A stretch of 22,023 nt of DNA, taken from the IMG/VR virus record IMGVR_UViG_3300027858_000027, positions 1 to 22,023 of that record. One strand, given 5' to 3'. Shown piece by piece: positions 5,104 to 22,023 of the stretch; position 1 is the stretch's first letter, and each line of letters starts with the position of its first letter. The notes under the pieces were generated by a model. That model made no database searches. It was not told the DNA's origin and worked only from the letters and a program-made list of their open reading frames with translations. This DNA comes from a virus. A program made the translations under genes and the position numbers.

Positions 5104-5379
5104 ATGCCACTTTATACCTATAAATGCAATGATTGCGGTCTTGAGATGGATAAATCTTTTCCTATTAACGATTTTCCGCAAGAAGTTGAGTGTATAGCTT
5201 GCGGTAGAATAGCAAGGAAAATTTTGTCTGTAGGACATGGAGGTATACAGACAGATGGAGATGTTTTATGGCTTCCTTCGGCATGTGAGGTTTTACAAAG
5301 ACACGGTGAGCCACCGCTGACAACCCGCACGGAGTATAAGCAATATCTGAAAAAGGAGGGGCTTATACCTTGTAGCTAG
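5104..5379 (+). CDS. FmdB-type Zn-ribbon protein
   Basis: 91 residues. The N-terminus M-P-L-Y-T-Y-K-C-x-x-C-G with a second C-x-x-C-G (C8, C11, C30, C33) is the zinc ribbon of the FmdB/Zn_ribbon_8 family ('putative regulatory protein'); cellular members have the same opening M-P-x-Y-x-Y-x-C. Residues 40-91 form a phage-specific extension with L-P-S-A-C-E-V-L-Q-R-H-G-E-P-P and a helix. The molecular role is not known; phage copies commonly lie in structural operons. It is the last gene before the terminator at 5407-5438. GTGG (5097-5100, in the ribosome site) can pair with CCAC (5107-5110) across the start codon, a weak 4-bp stem. Confidence 0.8.
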   Translation: MPLYTYKCNDCGLEMDKSFPINDFPQEVECIACGRIARKILSVGHGGIQTDGDVLWLPSACEVLQRHGEPPLTTRTEYKQYLKKEGLIPCS

Positions 5380-5406
5380 AATAAGATCCACCCTTATCTA
5401 ATATAC

Positions 5407-5438
5407 CCCGACTGACTTGTGTTAGTCCGGGTTTTTTT
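5407..5438 (+). terminator. Rho-independent terminator after the portal operon
   Basis: CCCG-ACT (5407-5413) pairs with AGT-C-CGGG (5424-5431), leaving one bulged C, and is followed by seven T (5432-5438). It separates the 1106-5379 genes from the scaffold/capsid genes and so implies a new promoter downstream. Confidence 0.75.
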
Positions 5439-5464
5439 GTGCAAAAAATAAAAAAGTCGGATAG

Positions 5465-5524
5465 GTGTAAACTTTCTTTACATATAGTATACTAAATGTA
5501 AGAAAGTGTAAAGAAACTTTACAC
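5465..5524 (+). promoter_or_regulatory. Dyad-rich control region (operator cluster and candidate promoter)
   Basis: Three adjoining dyads lie in 60 bp. First, TGTAAA (5466-5471) and TTTACA (5477-5482), 5-nt spacer. Second, a 24-bp near-perfect palindrome (5478-5501): outer arms TTACAT and ATGTAA, core TAGTATACTA (5485-5494), one mismatched pair between. Third, GTGTAAAG (5506-5513) and CTTTACAC (5517-5524), 3-nt spacer. The core holds the -10-like TATACT (5488-5493), but no good -35 is 15-19 nt upstream, so the promoter may need an activator or a phage factor. The core repeats the one at 1089-1100. This region should start the scaffold-capsid transcript; the third dyad would lie in its leader as a stem-loop. 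No open frame of note lies in 5380-5611 apart from the start of the scaffold gene. Confidence 0.6.
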
Positions 5525-5611
5525 TAAATTTTATTAACAATCAGACAAGGGACTATCCATTTAGGGCGGCCCAAGGGAATAACGCCACAATAAATGGCCC
5601 CGGAGGGAAAC

Positions 5612-6454
5612 ATGAACGATAGTAGATTCAAGAAAGCACCGGCAGTAGATGGAGGTTTTATACTTGGTAAAGAAGGCGGAGCTGGCGGCGACGGCGACGG
5701 CGACAAAGAAGGCGACGAGCCGTTTCTCGGCACATGGAAAACGAAGGAAGATGCCGCTGAGGGTTTAAAGAATCTTCAGACTAAGTTATCTGAGCAAGGA
5801 AACGAGTCAGGCACTCTAAAAAAACAATTAGAGGAAGCTAACGCACACATGGAAGACATGGGTGTCAAGTTACAGGAAGCCGAAAATGCTACTGCAAAGA
5901 GAGCATCCGATCAAGACAAGAATACTGTCAAGAGTGAGCAGGCCAAAATAAATCAGCAAATAGCTGATCTTGATCCTGTGGACGATGACTACTCGAAGAA
6001 ATTAATGTCTCTGATGAACAAGTCAAATGCTTTAGCTGCCAAAAGTCAACACGAAATTACCTTAACGGCTGCTACAGAGGTATTCAGGAAAGAGCTTGAT
6101 GAGCGTGACATTAAAACCGCACATCGGGATTTTTTTAGTGCGAATCCAGATTTCAATACTCCGGAGATGCAAGCTAAGATCAAGGAGTATATTGGTAAGG
6201 ACAAAACGGGAATGAGTGATCCCTTAGTAGCTTTCAGGGAAATTCAGAGAGATGATGCTGTGTTAAAAGCACAGGAACTTGAGACTCAGAATACCGAACT
6301 CATGGAACGGCTTAAACTTAAGAAAGGTACTGATGAGACCGGCACCGTTATTTTGAAGGGGCAAGGTGATCAAGGTACAAAACCACAACAGAAAACATTC
6401 GGAGCTGACCGGAACAAGGGGATGCAAGGTGTCCTCGATAAAATGAGGGAATAG
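5612..6454 (+). CDS. Capsid scaffolding protein
   Basis: 280 residues. I chose the ATG at 5612 because GGAGG (5602-5606) is spaced correctly; the in-frame ATG at 5594 has no good ribosome site. Scaffolds co-assemble with capsid protein into the procapsid and then leave. The sequence has the usual traits: an acidic Gly/Asp/Lys-rich N-terminus, an F-L-G-T-W-K-T-x-E-D-A-x-x-G motif, a long coiled-coil stretch with Gln/Glu/Lys heptads (about 55-135), a middle part with an A-N-P-D-F-N motif, and a basic C-terminal helix (R-N-K-G-M-Q-G-V-L-D-K-M-R-E), the end that binds capsid protein in well-studied scaffolds. It lies 29 nt upstream of the capsid gene. Function is inferred from composition and position. 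Confidence 0.82.
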   Translation: MNDSRFKKAPAVDGGFILGKEGGAGGDGDGDKEGDEPFLGTWKTKEDAAEGLKNLQTKLSEQGNESGTLKKQLEEANAHMEDMGVKLQEAENATAKRASDQDKNTVKSEQAKINQQIADLDPVDDDYSKKLMSLMNKSNALAAKSQHEITLTAATEVFRKELDERDIKTAHRDFFSANPDFNTPEMQAKIKEYIGKDKTGMSDPLVAFREIQRDDAVLKAQELETQNTELMERLKLKKGTDETGTVILKGQGDQGTKPQQKTFGADRNKGMQGVLDKMRE

Positions 6455-6455
6455 G

Positions 6456-6493
6456 TTGAGCTCCTTTATAGGAGATATTTGATATGAGCTTAA
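6456..6493 (+). promoter_or_regulatory. Two mutually exclusive hairpins at the capsid start
   Basis: CTCCT (6461-6465) can pair with the capsid Shine-Dalgarno AGGAG (6470-6474) across a TTAT loop. Alternatively TTGAGCTC (6456-6463) can pair with GAGCTTAA (6486-6493, one G-T wobble), which loops out the Shine-Dalgarno but buries the last base of the ATG and codons 2-3. The two stems share 6461-6463 and exclude each other. The scaffold stop at 6452-6454 is just upstream, so a terminating ribosome would disturb both. This may set the scaffold-to-capsid ratio. Confidence 0.45.
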
Positions 6494-7461
6494 TAAATCA
6501 GTTAAATGCAACCACAGAATATTACTGGCTTCAGACCGATCCTGTAGATATTCTTAACAAAGCATCCGCCCTAGTGTGGAAACTTATGGGCAACGCTATC
6601 ACCAAAGATAATTGGGTAGTACAACCTCATGAGGTTGTCGATGGCGGAAAGATGGTAAAGATTCCTCTTGAGTATGCAAATTCACATAGAGGTGGATACG
6701 GTGCGACTACCGTAATTAATCAGTCAAAGAAAGATCTGTTTGATGCTGCCAGATTCCGTTGGGCCGGTCTTTATGGTAGTAACTCCCTGAACCTTGATGA
6801 TAAGGTACAGAATACTGGGGATGCCGCTGTCATTTCCTTAACCAACCAATATATGGATAGTATCAAGAAAGCTGCCAGGATTCAGATGGCTGAAGATGTT
6901 GTTTCTTCTGCTGCTGATAGTACTCGGATTCTTGGACTCGGGGATCTCTTCAGTACAACCACCTCTACTGAGTATGGGAGTATCGATGAAGATGAGATGG
7001 CGGATTGGAAGGCCAATGTCATTACTACCGTTGAAGCTATTGGTTTCTCGGTACTACAGGCAATCTTCCGTGAAGTTAACATGGGAGACCATGCTTGGGC
7101 TTTGCCTAACTTTATTGCGACTACCGCTCTCTTGAGAGATGGTTATGAGCAGTCCCTCCATCCACAACAGAGATATCGTAACGAGAAGATGGTTGAAGCT
7201 GGATGGGAAAATATCGTCCACAAAGGCGCTCCCATGGTAGCTGATCCATATATTACCGCTGGTGAACTAATGGCCCTTAACCTGAATTTCTTATCTCTAA
7301 GGAGTCATAAGGATTACAACTTTACTACTCCTGTATGGGAGAGTAAAGCGGTCCTCGGTCAGCCTGATAACACTTCGGCAGATACTAGGTGGGTAGGTAA
7401 TCTGTATTGTTCTAACCGTAAAATGCACGTCAAACACACCAACCTTACCGCACCTGCATAA
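6484..7461 (+). CDS. Major capsid protein (HK97 fold)
   Basis: 325 residues, directly after the scaffold gene. It forms the pentamers and hexamers of the head. The pattern is that of short HK97-fold capsid proteins of podovirus-like and related phages: an N-terminal helix region, an E-loop-like segment (Y-A-N-S-H-R-G-G-Y-G, about 59-68), a W-A-G-L-Y-G-S-N-S-L spine region (about 94-103), a Gly-rich A-domain stretch (G-L-G-D-L-F) and a C-terminal P-domain/A-domain part with V-A-D-P-Y-I-T and W-V-G-N-L-Y-C-S-N-R. There is no N-terminal protease domain and no maturation protease gene nearby, in line with a separate scaffold. Ribosome site AGGAG, 9 nt from the ATG. Fold is inferred from sequence pattern and context, not a search. 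Confidence 0.87.
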   Translation: MSLINQLNATTEYYWLQTDPVDILNKASALVWKLMGNAITKDNWVVQPHEVVDGGKMVKIPLEYANSHRGGYGATTVINQSKKDLFDAARFRWAGLYGSNSLNLDDKVQNTGDAAVISLTNQYMDSIKKAARIQMAEDVVSSAADSTRILGLGDLFSTTTSTEYGSIDEDEMADWKANVITTVEAIGFSVLQAIFREVNMGDHAWALPNFIATTALLRDGYEQSLHPQQRYRNEKMVEAGWENIVHKGAPMVADPYITAGELMALNLNFLSLRSHKDYNFTTPVWESKAVLGQPDNTSADTRWVGNLYCSNRKMHVKHTNLTAPA

Positions 7462-19553: not shown

Positions 19554-22023
19554 GTGCCATTTCAAGATGATATATTAAGAGAGTTCGGCCAAGGGGTTGC
19601 TGAGATTGAGGACGAGAGAGCTCGCAAGAAACAGAAACCCTCTATATCGCCCAGCATCGTACCTGGAGGAAATGTTCCAGAAACAAAAACAAGCGATTGG
19701 TTAATGGATGAATTTGACGCTGGTATCAAAGAAATAGAACAGGCACAGGCAGAAGAAAAACCGACCCTCGTTTCAGGGATTGAGAAAATATTAAAAACTT
19801 TGCCGACGATTACTGATCCAGTCCCTCTAGTTAGAGAAAAGAAAGTCGAAAAAAAGGTGCCAAAGGCATTTGGAATGTCAGGTGAATTCGAGGAAGTAGG
19901 AATACCTGGAGTAACGCCGCCGCCCGCAGTTAGCCGCCGTCCACCCAGAATAACACCGCCGAAAGAAATTAGTCCGCTTGAAGCAGCTGGTAAGGGTGTC
20001 AAACATGGAATTATAGGTCTTGCTGAATCGGTCGGTACTGGCTTAGAATATGCAGGAGTCAGGACGGGTGTTAAGTTACTTAAAAAGGTTGGGAAAGAAA
20101 CAAGAGCATACTGGAAAGAAAAAGCAGAACCTCTTGAAGCGCCCCCTGAAATACAAGGTTCCATATTAAATGATCCTGGGATAATGTTGAAAAGTAATTG
20201 GTGGGCATATAATTTAGCTGACATGATTCCGAGCTTTGCTTCGATGATGGTTCCAAGTGTAGCTGCCGGAAAATATTTAAAAGTAGCAGGTAAGGCTCTT
20301 GAATTAACTCCCAAAGTTATTGAAAGATTGGTAAAGTTTGGATCATTAACAACGGCTGGGGTTGTTGGCGGTGGGATGGAAGGCGCGTCAACGTATCAAG
20401 AAATATTGGATAGGGGCGGATCTGAACAGGATGCAGCCGCTGGCATGGAAGCAATGACTTTAGCCGCTGGTGCGCTCAATTCAATAGGTTTTGGTAAAAT
20501 AACAGGAAAATTAGGAACTAAAAAATCTAATGCAATAATAAAATTTCTAAAAAATGGTAGCTGGGAAGGACTCACGGAATATCTTGAAGAACCCGTGGAA
20601 GTACTTATTAAGATGGGTCTTTTGCCGGAATCTGCATTTACTAAAAAGGAAGCAATAGAACAGTTAAAAGCAGGCATAAATGTTATTCCCATAGCTGGCG
20701 TAATGGGCGGTAGCACTTCAATGATTTTTGCAGAACCAAGCGATACGACCGAAAAGCTTAAAAAGACTGTTCTTGATGGTATAACAAAAACATATAAAGA
20801 AGGTACACAGAATGCGGATCAGGCAACTGGATCGATAATACGTGGATATAAGAATCAATTATTTAATGATGCAGATTTAAATGATTTATCAAAAAAGTAT
20901 CCTGAATTAAAAACAGGAATAGAGACTGCAAGGGAAGAAGTAAGAATAGAAGCAGTCAAAGATACCTTAATTGATGCTATCAATACAGGCCTTACTTCAG
21001 GAATATTACAAGGACAAACATTTAAAGAAAGCGATGCCATTGATTTTATTCGCAATGGTTTAGCGGGCGATATTTTTACAACTGACGATATTGATAATTT
21101 CAAAGAACAATATCCTAATCTCGGGAGTGATCTAAATGCTCTCATAGCTTCATCTTTCAGTCCTGAACTTGCAGCAACTCTTGAAAATATAAAGGCTTTA
21201 CCATCAGGGCAGGGGTTCGAGTTGATTGAGCCTAAACCTGAAATCAAGATACGCCCGAAAGATGTAAAGTATCCGAGAGGCAAGGAATATGTAGCTGGTA
21301 AACCTGCATCCGAAGAACTTGAGGTTGAATATAAACCTGTTTTAAGAAAAACCGTGAAGGGTGACATGCCATGGAAGACTAAGATCGGTGCAGAAAATGC
21401 TTTAAAATCTGAGAAGCTAAACAAAAAAGGGATATCTTCATCTACTCATGAGGTTGTAGGGGTTGAGGATGGATATCAGATTGTAAGAACAAAGCCTGAA
21501 GTAAAGGAGCCTGAAGTAAAGGAGCCTGAAGTAAAGGAGCCTGAAGTAAAGGAGCCTGAAGTAAAGGAGCCTGAAGTAAAGGAACTTGAAGTAAAGGAGC
21601 TTGAAGTAAAGGAGCTTGAAGTAAAGGAGCTTGAAGTAAGAAGTACGACTGATCTTGTAAAGAGATACGTAAAAGAGACCGGTAAAAAAGTTGAGAAAGG
21701 CGATCTTGATAAAGTAAAAGCTAGGTATCCTGAAGAATGGGCAAAGATAAAGGAAGCCGAAACACACAAAAAAGAATTATGGAATAAGTTGTCTGAAGAC
21801 TTCAGAAAGAATCGTGGAATTAACGAATATACTACAGAGGAATTAGAGAGAGAAGTAACAAGAATTTCTCCAGAAAAGGAAATAACAGAAAAAATATTAA
21901 CAAACAGTTCCGGTAAAGATGAAACTGTCAAGGTTGGGGCGCATGTAAAAATAAATAAAAGTACCTATGGAACCGTGAAGGGATTTGATAAAAATATTGT
22001 TATAGTCGAATCAGATCCAATCA
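19554..22023 (+). CDS. Very large internal-virion (ejection-like) protein, partial at 3' end
   Basis: An uninterrupted frame from the GTG at 19554 (AGGGG six nt ahead) to the window end, 823 codons with no stop. Residues 1-110 are hydrophilic with Lys/Glu and Pro-rich stretches. About 130-165 is an amphipathic Gly-rich part. About 212-320 is hydrophobic and Gly/Ala-rich (N-W-W-A-Y-N-L-A-D-M-I-P-S-F, V-V-G-G-G-M-E-G-A-S-T-Y-Q-E-I-L-D-R-G-G), a pattern I recall from large polyvalent or internal virion proteins that enter the host envelope with DNA. Residues 648-696 are ten units P/L-E-V-K-E. A small beta domain (G-A-H-V-K-I-N-K-S-T-Y-G-T-V-K-G-F, about 799-815) follows. Place at the end of the structural genes fits an ejection protein. 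Catalytic domains, if any, may lie beyond the window. Minus-strand frames over this region are shadows. Confidence 0.72.
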   Translation, partial: MPFQDDILREFGQGVAEIEDERARKKQKPSISPSIVPGGNVPETKTSDWLMDEFDAGIKEIEQAQAEEKPTLVSGIEKILKTLPTITDPVPLVREKKVEKKVPKAFGMSGEFEEVGIPGVTPPPAVSRRPPRITPPKEISPLEAAGKGVKHGIIGLAESVGTGLEYAGVRTGVKLLKKVGKETRAYWKEKAEPLEAPPEIQGSILNDPGIMLKSNWWAYNLADMIPSFASMMVPSVAAGKYLKVAGKALELTPKVIERLVKFGSLTTAGVVGGGMEGASTYQEILDRGGSEQDAAAGMEAMTLAAGALNSIGFGKITGKLGTKKSNAIIKFLKNGSWEGLTEYLEEPVEVLIKMGLLPESAFTKKEAIEQLKAGINVIPIAGVMGGSTSMIFAEPSDTTEKLKKTVLDGITKTYKEGTQNADQATGSIIRGYKNQLFNDADLNDLSKKYPELKTGIETAREEVRIEAVKDTLIDAINTGLTSGILQGQTFKESDAIDFIRNGLAGDIFTTDDIDNFKEQYPNLGSDLNALIASSFSPELAATLENIKALPSGQGFELIEPKPEIKIRPKDVKYPRGKEYVAGKPASEELEVEYKPVLRKTVKGDMPWKTKIGAENALKSEKLNKKGISSSTHEVVGVEDGYQIVRTKPEVKEPEVKEPEVKEPEVKEPEVKEPEVKELEVKELEVKELEVKELEVRSTTDLVKRYVKETGKKVEKGDLDKVKARYPEEWAKIKEAETHKKELWNKLSEDFRKNRGINEYTTEELEREVTRISPEKEITEKILTNSSGKDETVKVGAHVKINKSTYGTVKGFDKNIVIVESDPI
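21495..21641 (+). repeat. 15-bp tandem repeat encoding P-E-V-K-E / L-E-V-K-E
   Basis: Ten in-frame units of CCTGAAGTAAAGGAG or its variant. Units 1-6 (21495-21584) start CCT (Pro), the sixth ending in GAA; units 7-10 (21585-21641) start CTT (Leu), the last truncated at 12 nt and ending AGA (Arg). The single C-to-T change shared by all of units 7-10 shows the array grew in blocks. The encoded stretch is charged and Pro-spaced, a likely flexible tether. Confidence 0.93.

Follow-up and report, generated by a model that had tools for sequence, protein, structure and literature searches.

How is the synthesis of scaffold and capsid controlled in the virus whose record is analysed here? The scaffold:capsid ratio is critical for the assembly of tailed phages and, to our knowledge, the means by which this ratio is set is not known for most of them. 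The record (22,023 bases, the whole of which is called the window below) had been given a preliminary description, which read a cluster of DNA dyads ahead of the scaffold and capsid genes as cooperative operators. The features between the upstream gene and the capsid gene, apart from the RNA leader described further on, are the following:

5104–5379, + strand: zinc-ribbon gene, directly upstream (Pfam Zn_ribbon_8, E 7e-10).
5405–5439, + strand: intrinsic terminator, plain, without the bulge module defined below, which separates the zinc-ribbon gene from the promoter segment.
5466–5482, no strand: dyad O1, TGTAAACTTTCTTTACA, not conserved in relatives.
5478–5501, no strand: central near-palindrome TTACATATAGTATACTAAATGTAA, containing the −10-like TATACT (5488–5493), not conserved as a dyad.
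5507–5523, no strand: dyad O2, TGTAAAGAAACTTTACA, not conserved.
5612–6454, + strand: scaffold gene, ATG at 5612, 280 amino acids, assigned from its position 5′ of the capsid gene and from homologues.
6484–7461, + strand: major capsid gene (PHROG major head protein, E 1e-22).

The dyads themselves are as they had been described. TGTAAA is found at 5466 and 5507, TTTACA at 5477 and 5518, the variant ATGTAA at 5496, and the perfect dyad GTGTAAAG/CTTTACAC at 5506–5513/5517–5524. The three dyads exceed chance (at most 2 in 400 shuffles): with dinucleotide-preserving shuffles of 5440–5548 as the control, the six perfect dyads with 6-bp arms in this segment compare with a mean of 0.8, as many being seen in 2 of 400 shuffles, and no shuffle out of 400 gave two 6-5-6 dyads that share one half-site. 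O1 and O2 are one and the same 17-bp unit, TGTAAA-N5-TTTACA, placed 41 bp apart (centre to centre) on either side of TATACT, and they are the only two such sites with up to two mismatches in the record. In a transcript beginning at about 5500, O2 would also form a hairpin close to the 5′ end. The lack of a −35 box was confirmed: the promoter scan of the region gave no sigma70 pair on the + strand, and 5465–5524 holds the −10-like TATACT only, with no −35/−10 pair 16–18 nt apart.

The "shared core" of the preliminary description has to be abandoned. At 1090, TAGTATACTA is the −10 box of another promoter and, since the relatives read CAGTATAATA there, the palindrome itself is not shared; a second operator at this place is ruled out, the site being an ordinary −10 box in the relatives. 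This promoter (1066–1095, sigma70-like, about TTGCRN-N18-TATAMT) lies ahead of ORF 1106 and has been retained in L003, L006, L012, L015 and L019. Two other repeats of the window may be mentioned here: a tandem-hairpin terminator made of a perfect 23-nt direct repeat, ATCCAGCGGACTCCATGTCCTGG, at 977–999 and 1018–1040, each copy of which can form a hairpin, followed by a run of nine T; and, close to the end of the record (21493–21639), tandem 15-nt repeats, GTAAAGGAGCCTGAA, which are in frame and code for a repetitive charged peptide.

About 100 related loci were retrieved with the window capsid and portal genes as queries, and scaffold homologues are present in about 20 of the loci fetched first; the scaffold protein has no match in Pfam or PHROG. 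DNA comparison gave no named phage relative, and the single named genome among the relatives is that of the Methanosarcina virus MetMV, whose capsid protein is 58% identical to that of the window. The host of MetMV was predicted in silico from metagenomic data only, with CRISPR-spacer matches to four unrelated genera (PMC7164591). Seven loci from genome bins, one of them inside a 188-kb contig, contain relatives, and most of these bins are labelled Deltaproteobacteria or Syntrophaceae. The archaeal host that MetMV brings to mind was set aside as weak, and we assume a bacterial host, probably one of the Deltaproteobacteria, because of these bins and because the host of MetMV is a metagenomic prediction only. 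As a separate observation, near-identical MetMV-like capsid genes (L066, which is MetMV, L145, L146 and L147) occur in bins labelled Methanoperedens and Peptococcaceae; the Methanosarcina host published for MetMV seems open to doubt.

The dyads do not fare well in the comparison with relatives. In seven close relatives (capsid protein identity 80–83% where measured), the dyad segment is 27–43% identical to that of the window at the DNA level, against 69–77% for the adjoining leader; dyad pairs are retained in only 50–59% of cells, a small margin over the controls, and TGTAAA together with TTTACA is absent from the segments of all seven aligned relatives. The preliminary description had itself set in advance what would refute its proposal, and this is what the alignment gives: conservation extends to the coding regions, and to the RNA leader, but not to the dyads. 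The operator reading is therefore only partly sustained. Identical paired dyads in helical register, about four turns apart at a −10-like box, are what is expected of a cooperative pair of operators; their conservation is not observed. Since the dyads are private to the window virus, an operator function can only be specific to its lineage. With the −10-like box, in the AT-rich segment between the terminator and the scaffold leader, they look like a regulated promoter, to judge from sequence features, and any operators at that promoter would belong to the window virus alone.

In the window-clade relatives, too, an AT-rich insert separates the terminator from the leader. L003, L004, L005, L009 and L014 have a box there, TATAAT or TATAGT with no evident −35, at 47–50 nt before the leader, and L015 has a TATACT box 37 nt ahead of it. 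A promoter in the insert of this clade is plausible. Regarding the protein that might bind the dyads, the half-sites are identical to those of the TyrR box, TGTAAA-N6-TTTACA, but the spacer is 5 bp in both window sites instead of 6 bp, and nothing ties the dyads to TyrR. Paired TGTAAA-N5-TTTACA sites also occur in 34 other, unrelated viral stretches. In L033, L036, L039, L042, L050, L054 and L064, at least two such dyads lie inside phage genes, several of which are HTH_36 or DnaD-like, which gives a lead: a winged-helix protein is one candidate binder.

What the relatives keep lies 25 nt downstream of the dyads and was overlooked in the preliminary description. It is the mRNA leader of the scaffold gene, 5549–5614, of which 5549–5600 folds as two nested stems, both with a bulge on one strand:

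5549–5551, + strand: GGG, 5′ strand of the base of the outer stem (P1a), pairs with 5598–5600 (from the covariance model and pair counts).
5552–5556, + strand: bulge 1, ACTAT.
5557–5563, + strand: CCATTTA, 5′ strand of the outer stem (P1b), pairs with 5591–5597 (TAAATGG), with several compensatory changes across the clade.
5565–5568, + strand: GGCG, 5′ strand of the inner stem (P2a), pairs with 5583–5586 (CGCC).
5570–5577, + strand: inner hairpin P2b, CC, loop CAAG, GG.
5578–5582, + strand: bulge 2, AATAA.
5583–5600, + strand: 3′ strands of P2a, P1b and P1a.
5602–5606, + strand: Shine–Dalgarno sequence GGAGG, 2 nt downstream of P1.

Across the family, the Shine–Dalgarno core follows the end of the stem at 1–8 nt (median 4) in 38 of 39 leaders, and the scaffold ATG follows it at a median of 17 nt. 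The letters of the outer stem differ widely in distant relatives (CATGTTT/AAACATG or CTTAGTT/GACTAAG, for example) while the plan is the same. In the eight sequences of the window clade, 96% of cells are paired, with 5 double-change pairs against 1.5 in shuffles. For 30 diverse leaders, 89.5% of cells are paired, covariation is 0.458 against 0.144 after shuffling (reached in none of 500 shuffles) and 0.04–0.12 when the partners are slid, and there are 74 double-change cells against 22. The 26 leaders that remain when the window clade is removed give 0.508 against 0.144, and a second subtype, marked by GYAG bulges and represented by nine leaders, is 98.4% paired (0.210 against 0.101). All these figures come from MAFFT alignments that were not fitted to the structure, but the starts had been trimmed to fit the motif and the structure had been derived from the very sequences compared. 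Covariation above both the shuffled and the slid controls, and a constant position with respect to one ribosome-binding site, are what is expected of a structured cis-acting mRNA leader. RNAalifold, unaided, recovers the inner stem only; taken singly, the window leader has a minimum-energy fold that favours another structure by 1.8 kcal/mol, while in L003, L145 and L117 the minimum-energy fold is the conserved form.

Covariance models find the leader at one place. The model R1 gives 60 matches in 772 kb (85 loci), all on the + strand and all in the scaffold leader, including sequences outside the seed such as L113 (2e-9), L137 (4e-9) and L103 (6e-8); L123 has a partial second match just 5′ of its leader, and every other locus with a match has it at one place. 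The model R2, built without the window clade, has its best match in the window at 5550–5608 (19.1 bits, E 0.006; the next one scores 8.2 bits) and picks the same leader position in L003 (5e-4), L006, L009 and L014. Nothing convincing turned up in the distant capsid relatives Mx9, 45A6 and ctMlz233 (best match 11 bits, E 3.2), and the twin motif, searched as a narrow DNA pattern, matched only family members that had already been collected.

Rfam gave chance-level matches only, both for the window region at a permissive threshold and for ten relatives at the gathering threshold, and a literature search for such a leader element gave nothing relevant. Judged against Rfam and the literature searched, the leader is a previously undescribed RNA element, with a fold strongly supported by sequence comparison and kept by dozens of related viruses; the novelty of this locus resides in the RNA, not in the dyads. 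Two other readings of the leader were considered. CsrA sites (GGA core) are rejected, the GGGCAA and GGGTAG variants breaking the core, and a coding constraint is unlikely as the cause of the conservation, as the lengths of stems, bulges and loops vary by single bases.

The repeated unit of the leader is a bulge module, 5′-GG-[A/G]NA[A/C]-C...G-CC-3′, in which the bulge faces either no base or a single one. As a rule, both copies in a leader, outer and inner, are of one bulge type, ANAA/GCAA in most relatives, 5-nt AAYAW-like in the window clade and GYAG in the MetMV group, and the type tends to switch jointly in both copies between clades, as expected if the copies co-evolve with one binder. 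By eye, L028 and L134 have a single module, and in L133 (leader at about 460–540) and L139 (3843–3891) the bulge of the inner module is on the 5′ instead of the 3′ strand; the inner module of these two appears circularly permuted. Module density in the pre-scaffold region is about four times that in the rest of the loci, as counted by an automated finder that does not detect the longer bulges of the window clade.

In most relatives the module also occurs within the terminator hairpin, 6–30 nt upstream of the leader, whereas it is absent from the terminator of the window clade, a contrast that may reflect one event in one clade and is not an independent replication. The gap between terminator and leader is about 80–200 nt in that clade; as the 6–30 nt of most relatives leave no room for a promoter, their scaffold gene is presumably transcribed by read-through. 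In 47 loci (L105, 3410–3589; L112, 3484–3663; L088, 3495–3650; and 44 others), the zinc-ribbon gene is separated from the terminator by a gene for a small conserved protein of about 50–60 amino acids, with a core like KPTGxFxIxVNQGGIRGKPKI. Of the window-clade loci, six with enough upstream sequence were inspected, and none has this gene. It is unlikely to be the binder of the leader, since the window clade is devoid of the gene yet keeps the leader.

We propose, tentatively and at somewhat less than an even chance, that 5380–5614 is a two-layer control region of the scaffold–capsid operon, in which a lineage-specific regulated promoter is combined with an ancient translational operator. The first layer, in the window virus only, would be a promoter with TATACT as its −10 box, without −35, between the two identical 17-bp dyads, to which a dimeric repressor or activator would bind. 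The second layer, common to the family, would be the folded mRNA leader that ends 1–8 nt 5′ of the Shine–Dalgarno core: a protein, probably encoded by the phage, would bind both bulge modules as paired sites and cover the ribosome-binding site. Scaffold, and the capsid encoded downstream, would then be produced only as fast as assembly consumes scaffold. Two identical modules beside the start site suggest a protein that contacts RNA through two surfaces and hinders ribosomes or, with lower probability, assists them. From the sequence we infer promoter activity, a DNA-binding protein, an RNA ligand and a direction of regulation, and the leader probably controls the amount of scaffold and capsid made.

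The scaffolding protein of P22 is autoregulated post-transcriptionally, and because the site considered here is at the scaffold's own start, the scaffold protein is the first candidate ligand. The likeness to P22 is in the position of the gene and in a plausible logic, free scaffold limiting its own synthesis; we know of no RNA target of this kind in P22, so that the two cases differ: here the RNA element has been found and the protein has not. The zinc-ribbon protein is another possible trans-acting factor. In MS2 and PP7, a bulged hairpin at a start site is bound by a capsid-related protein and translation stops; these operators are single hairpins with a bulged A in single-stranded RNA phages, whereas the leader has two copies of a one-sided bulge of 4–5 nt, in a double-stranded DNA phage, and its ligand is putative. 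The presence of the module in the terminators of most relatives suggests that the same ligand may also set read-through there, and that the ancestral arrangement also controlled read-through. A single phage protein (scaffold, capsid or small neighbour) might even read all GG-ANAA-C/G-CC modules, once in the terminator and twice at the scaffold start, thereby tying read-through and translation to assembly; we regard this as rather unlikely.

On another hypothesis, the modules are read on the nascent RNA by RNA polymerase or by an antiterminator protein (put-like or nut-like), and transcription then enters the late genes. The putL and putR elements of HK022 are phage RNAs about 70 nt long that have bulges and two stems and are located near the transcription start or terminators (PMC9378689). 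They form two stem-loops in a V shape and act on RNA polymerase (zinc-binding domain of β′) in early operons; the window leader is a stem nested in a stem, not a V, tied to a Shine–Dalgarno sequence in a late operon. Fold and context set it apart from put as described there. Attenuation would account for the terminator modules of relatives that have no room for a promoter, and for their absence from the clade that has room; on the other hand, the distance from the leader to the Shine–Dalgarno sequence and start codon is nearly constant in all lineages and the leader survives the loss of the terminator module, which argues against a purely transcriptional role, and no terminator comes directly after the window capsid gene, the hairpin at that place being without a T run. 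We give this hypothesis a minor share of the probability.

It may also be that only the dyads are regulatory, as cooperative operators of a phage regulator on a late promoter, the leader being a passive structured 5′ untranslated region. Two identical sites 41 bp apart are above chance, and the AT-rich segment has a −10-like box in relatives too; however, no relative conserves the sites, the leader is strongly conserved by structure, and none of the window proteins scanned, a part of the total, was recognised as a regulator, so we consider this improbable. That the dyads are instead iteron-like sites of a replication initiator is suggested by the 34 unrelated stretches with paired sites, several of them in HTH_36/DnaD-like genes, as in phage origins. 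There are only two copies here, intergenic and around a promoter-like core, and no such gene was recognised among the part of the window proteins scanned, in a record that is a fragment; this is very unlikely. Last, a packaging RNA (pRNA-like) or other trans-acting RNA that lies 5′ of the scaffold gene by chance would suit the location, with the portal gene on one side and the capsid gene on the other, and the repetition of identical modules would suit a multimeric protein, but it is very improbable, since a trans-acting RNA does not need to abut a Shine–Dalgarno sequence and a start codon, as the leader does in every lineage with hardly any change in spacing.

The leader is a sharply defined RNA element at the scaffold gene of a large family of uncultured viruses with deltaproteobacterial genome-bin relatives. 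That the bulge types differ between clades offers a route to finding the binding protein. The family also presents an evolutionary contrast: in most of the relatives, transcription of the scaffold gene seems to depend on reading through a terminator that carries the module, while the window clade has a separate putative promoter segment, with candidate operators of its own in the window virus, and yet has kept the RNA.
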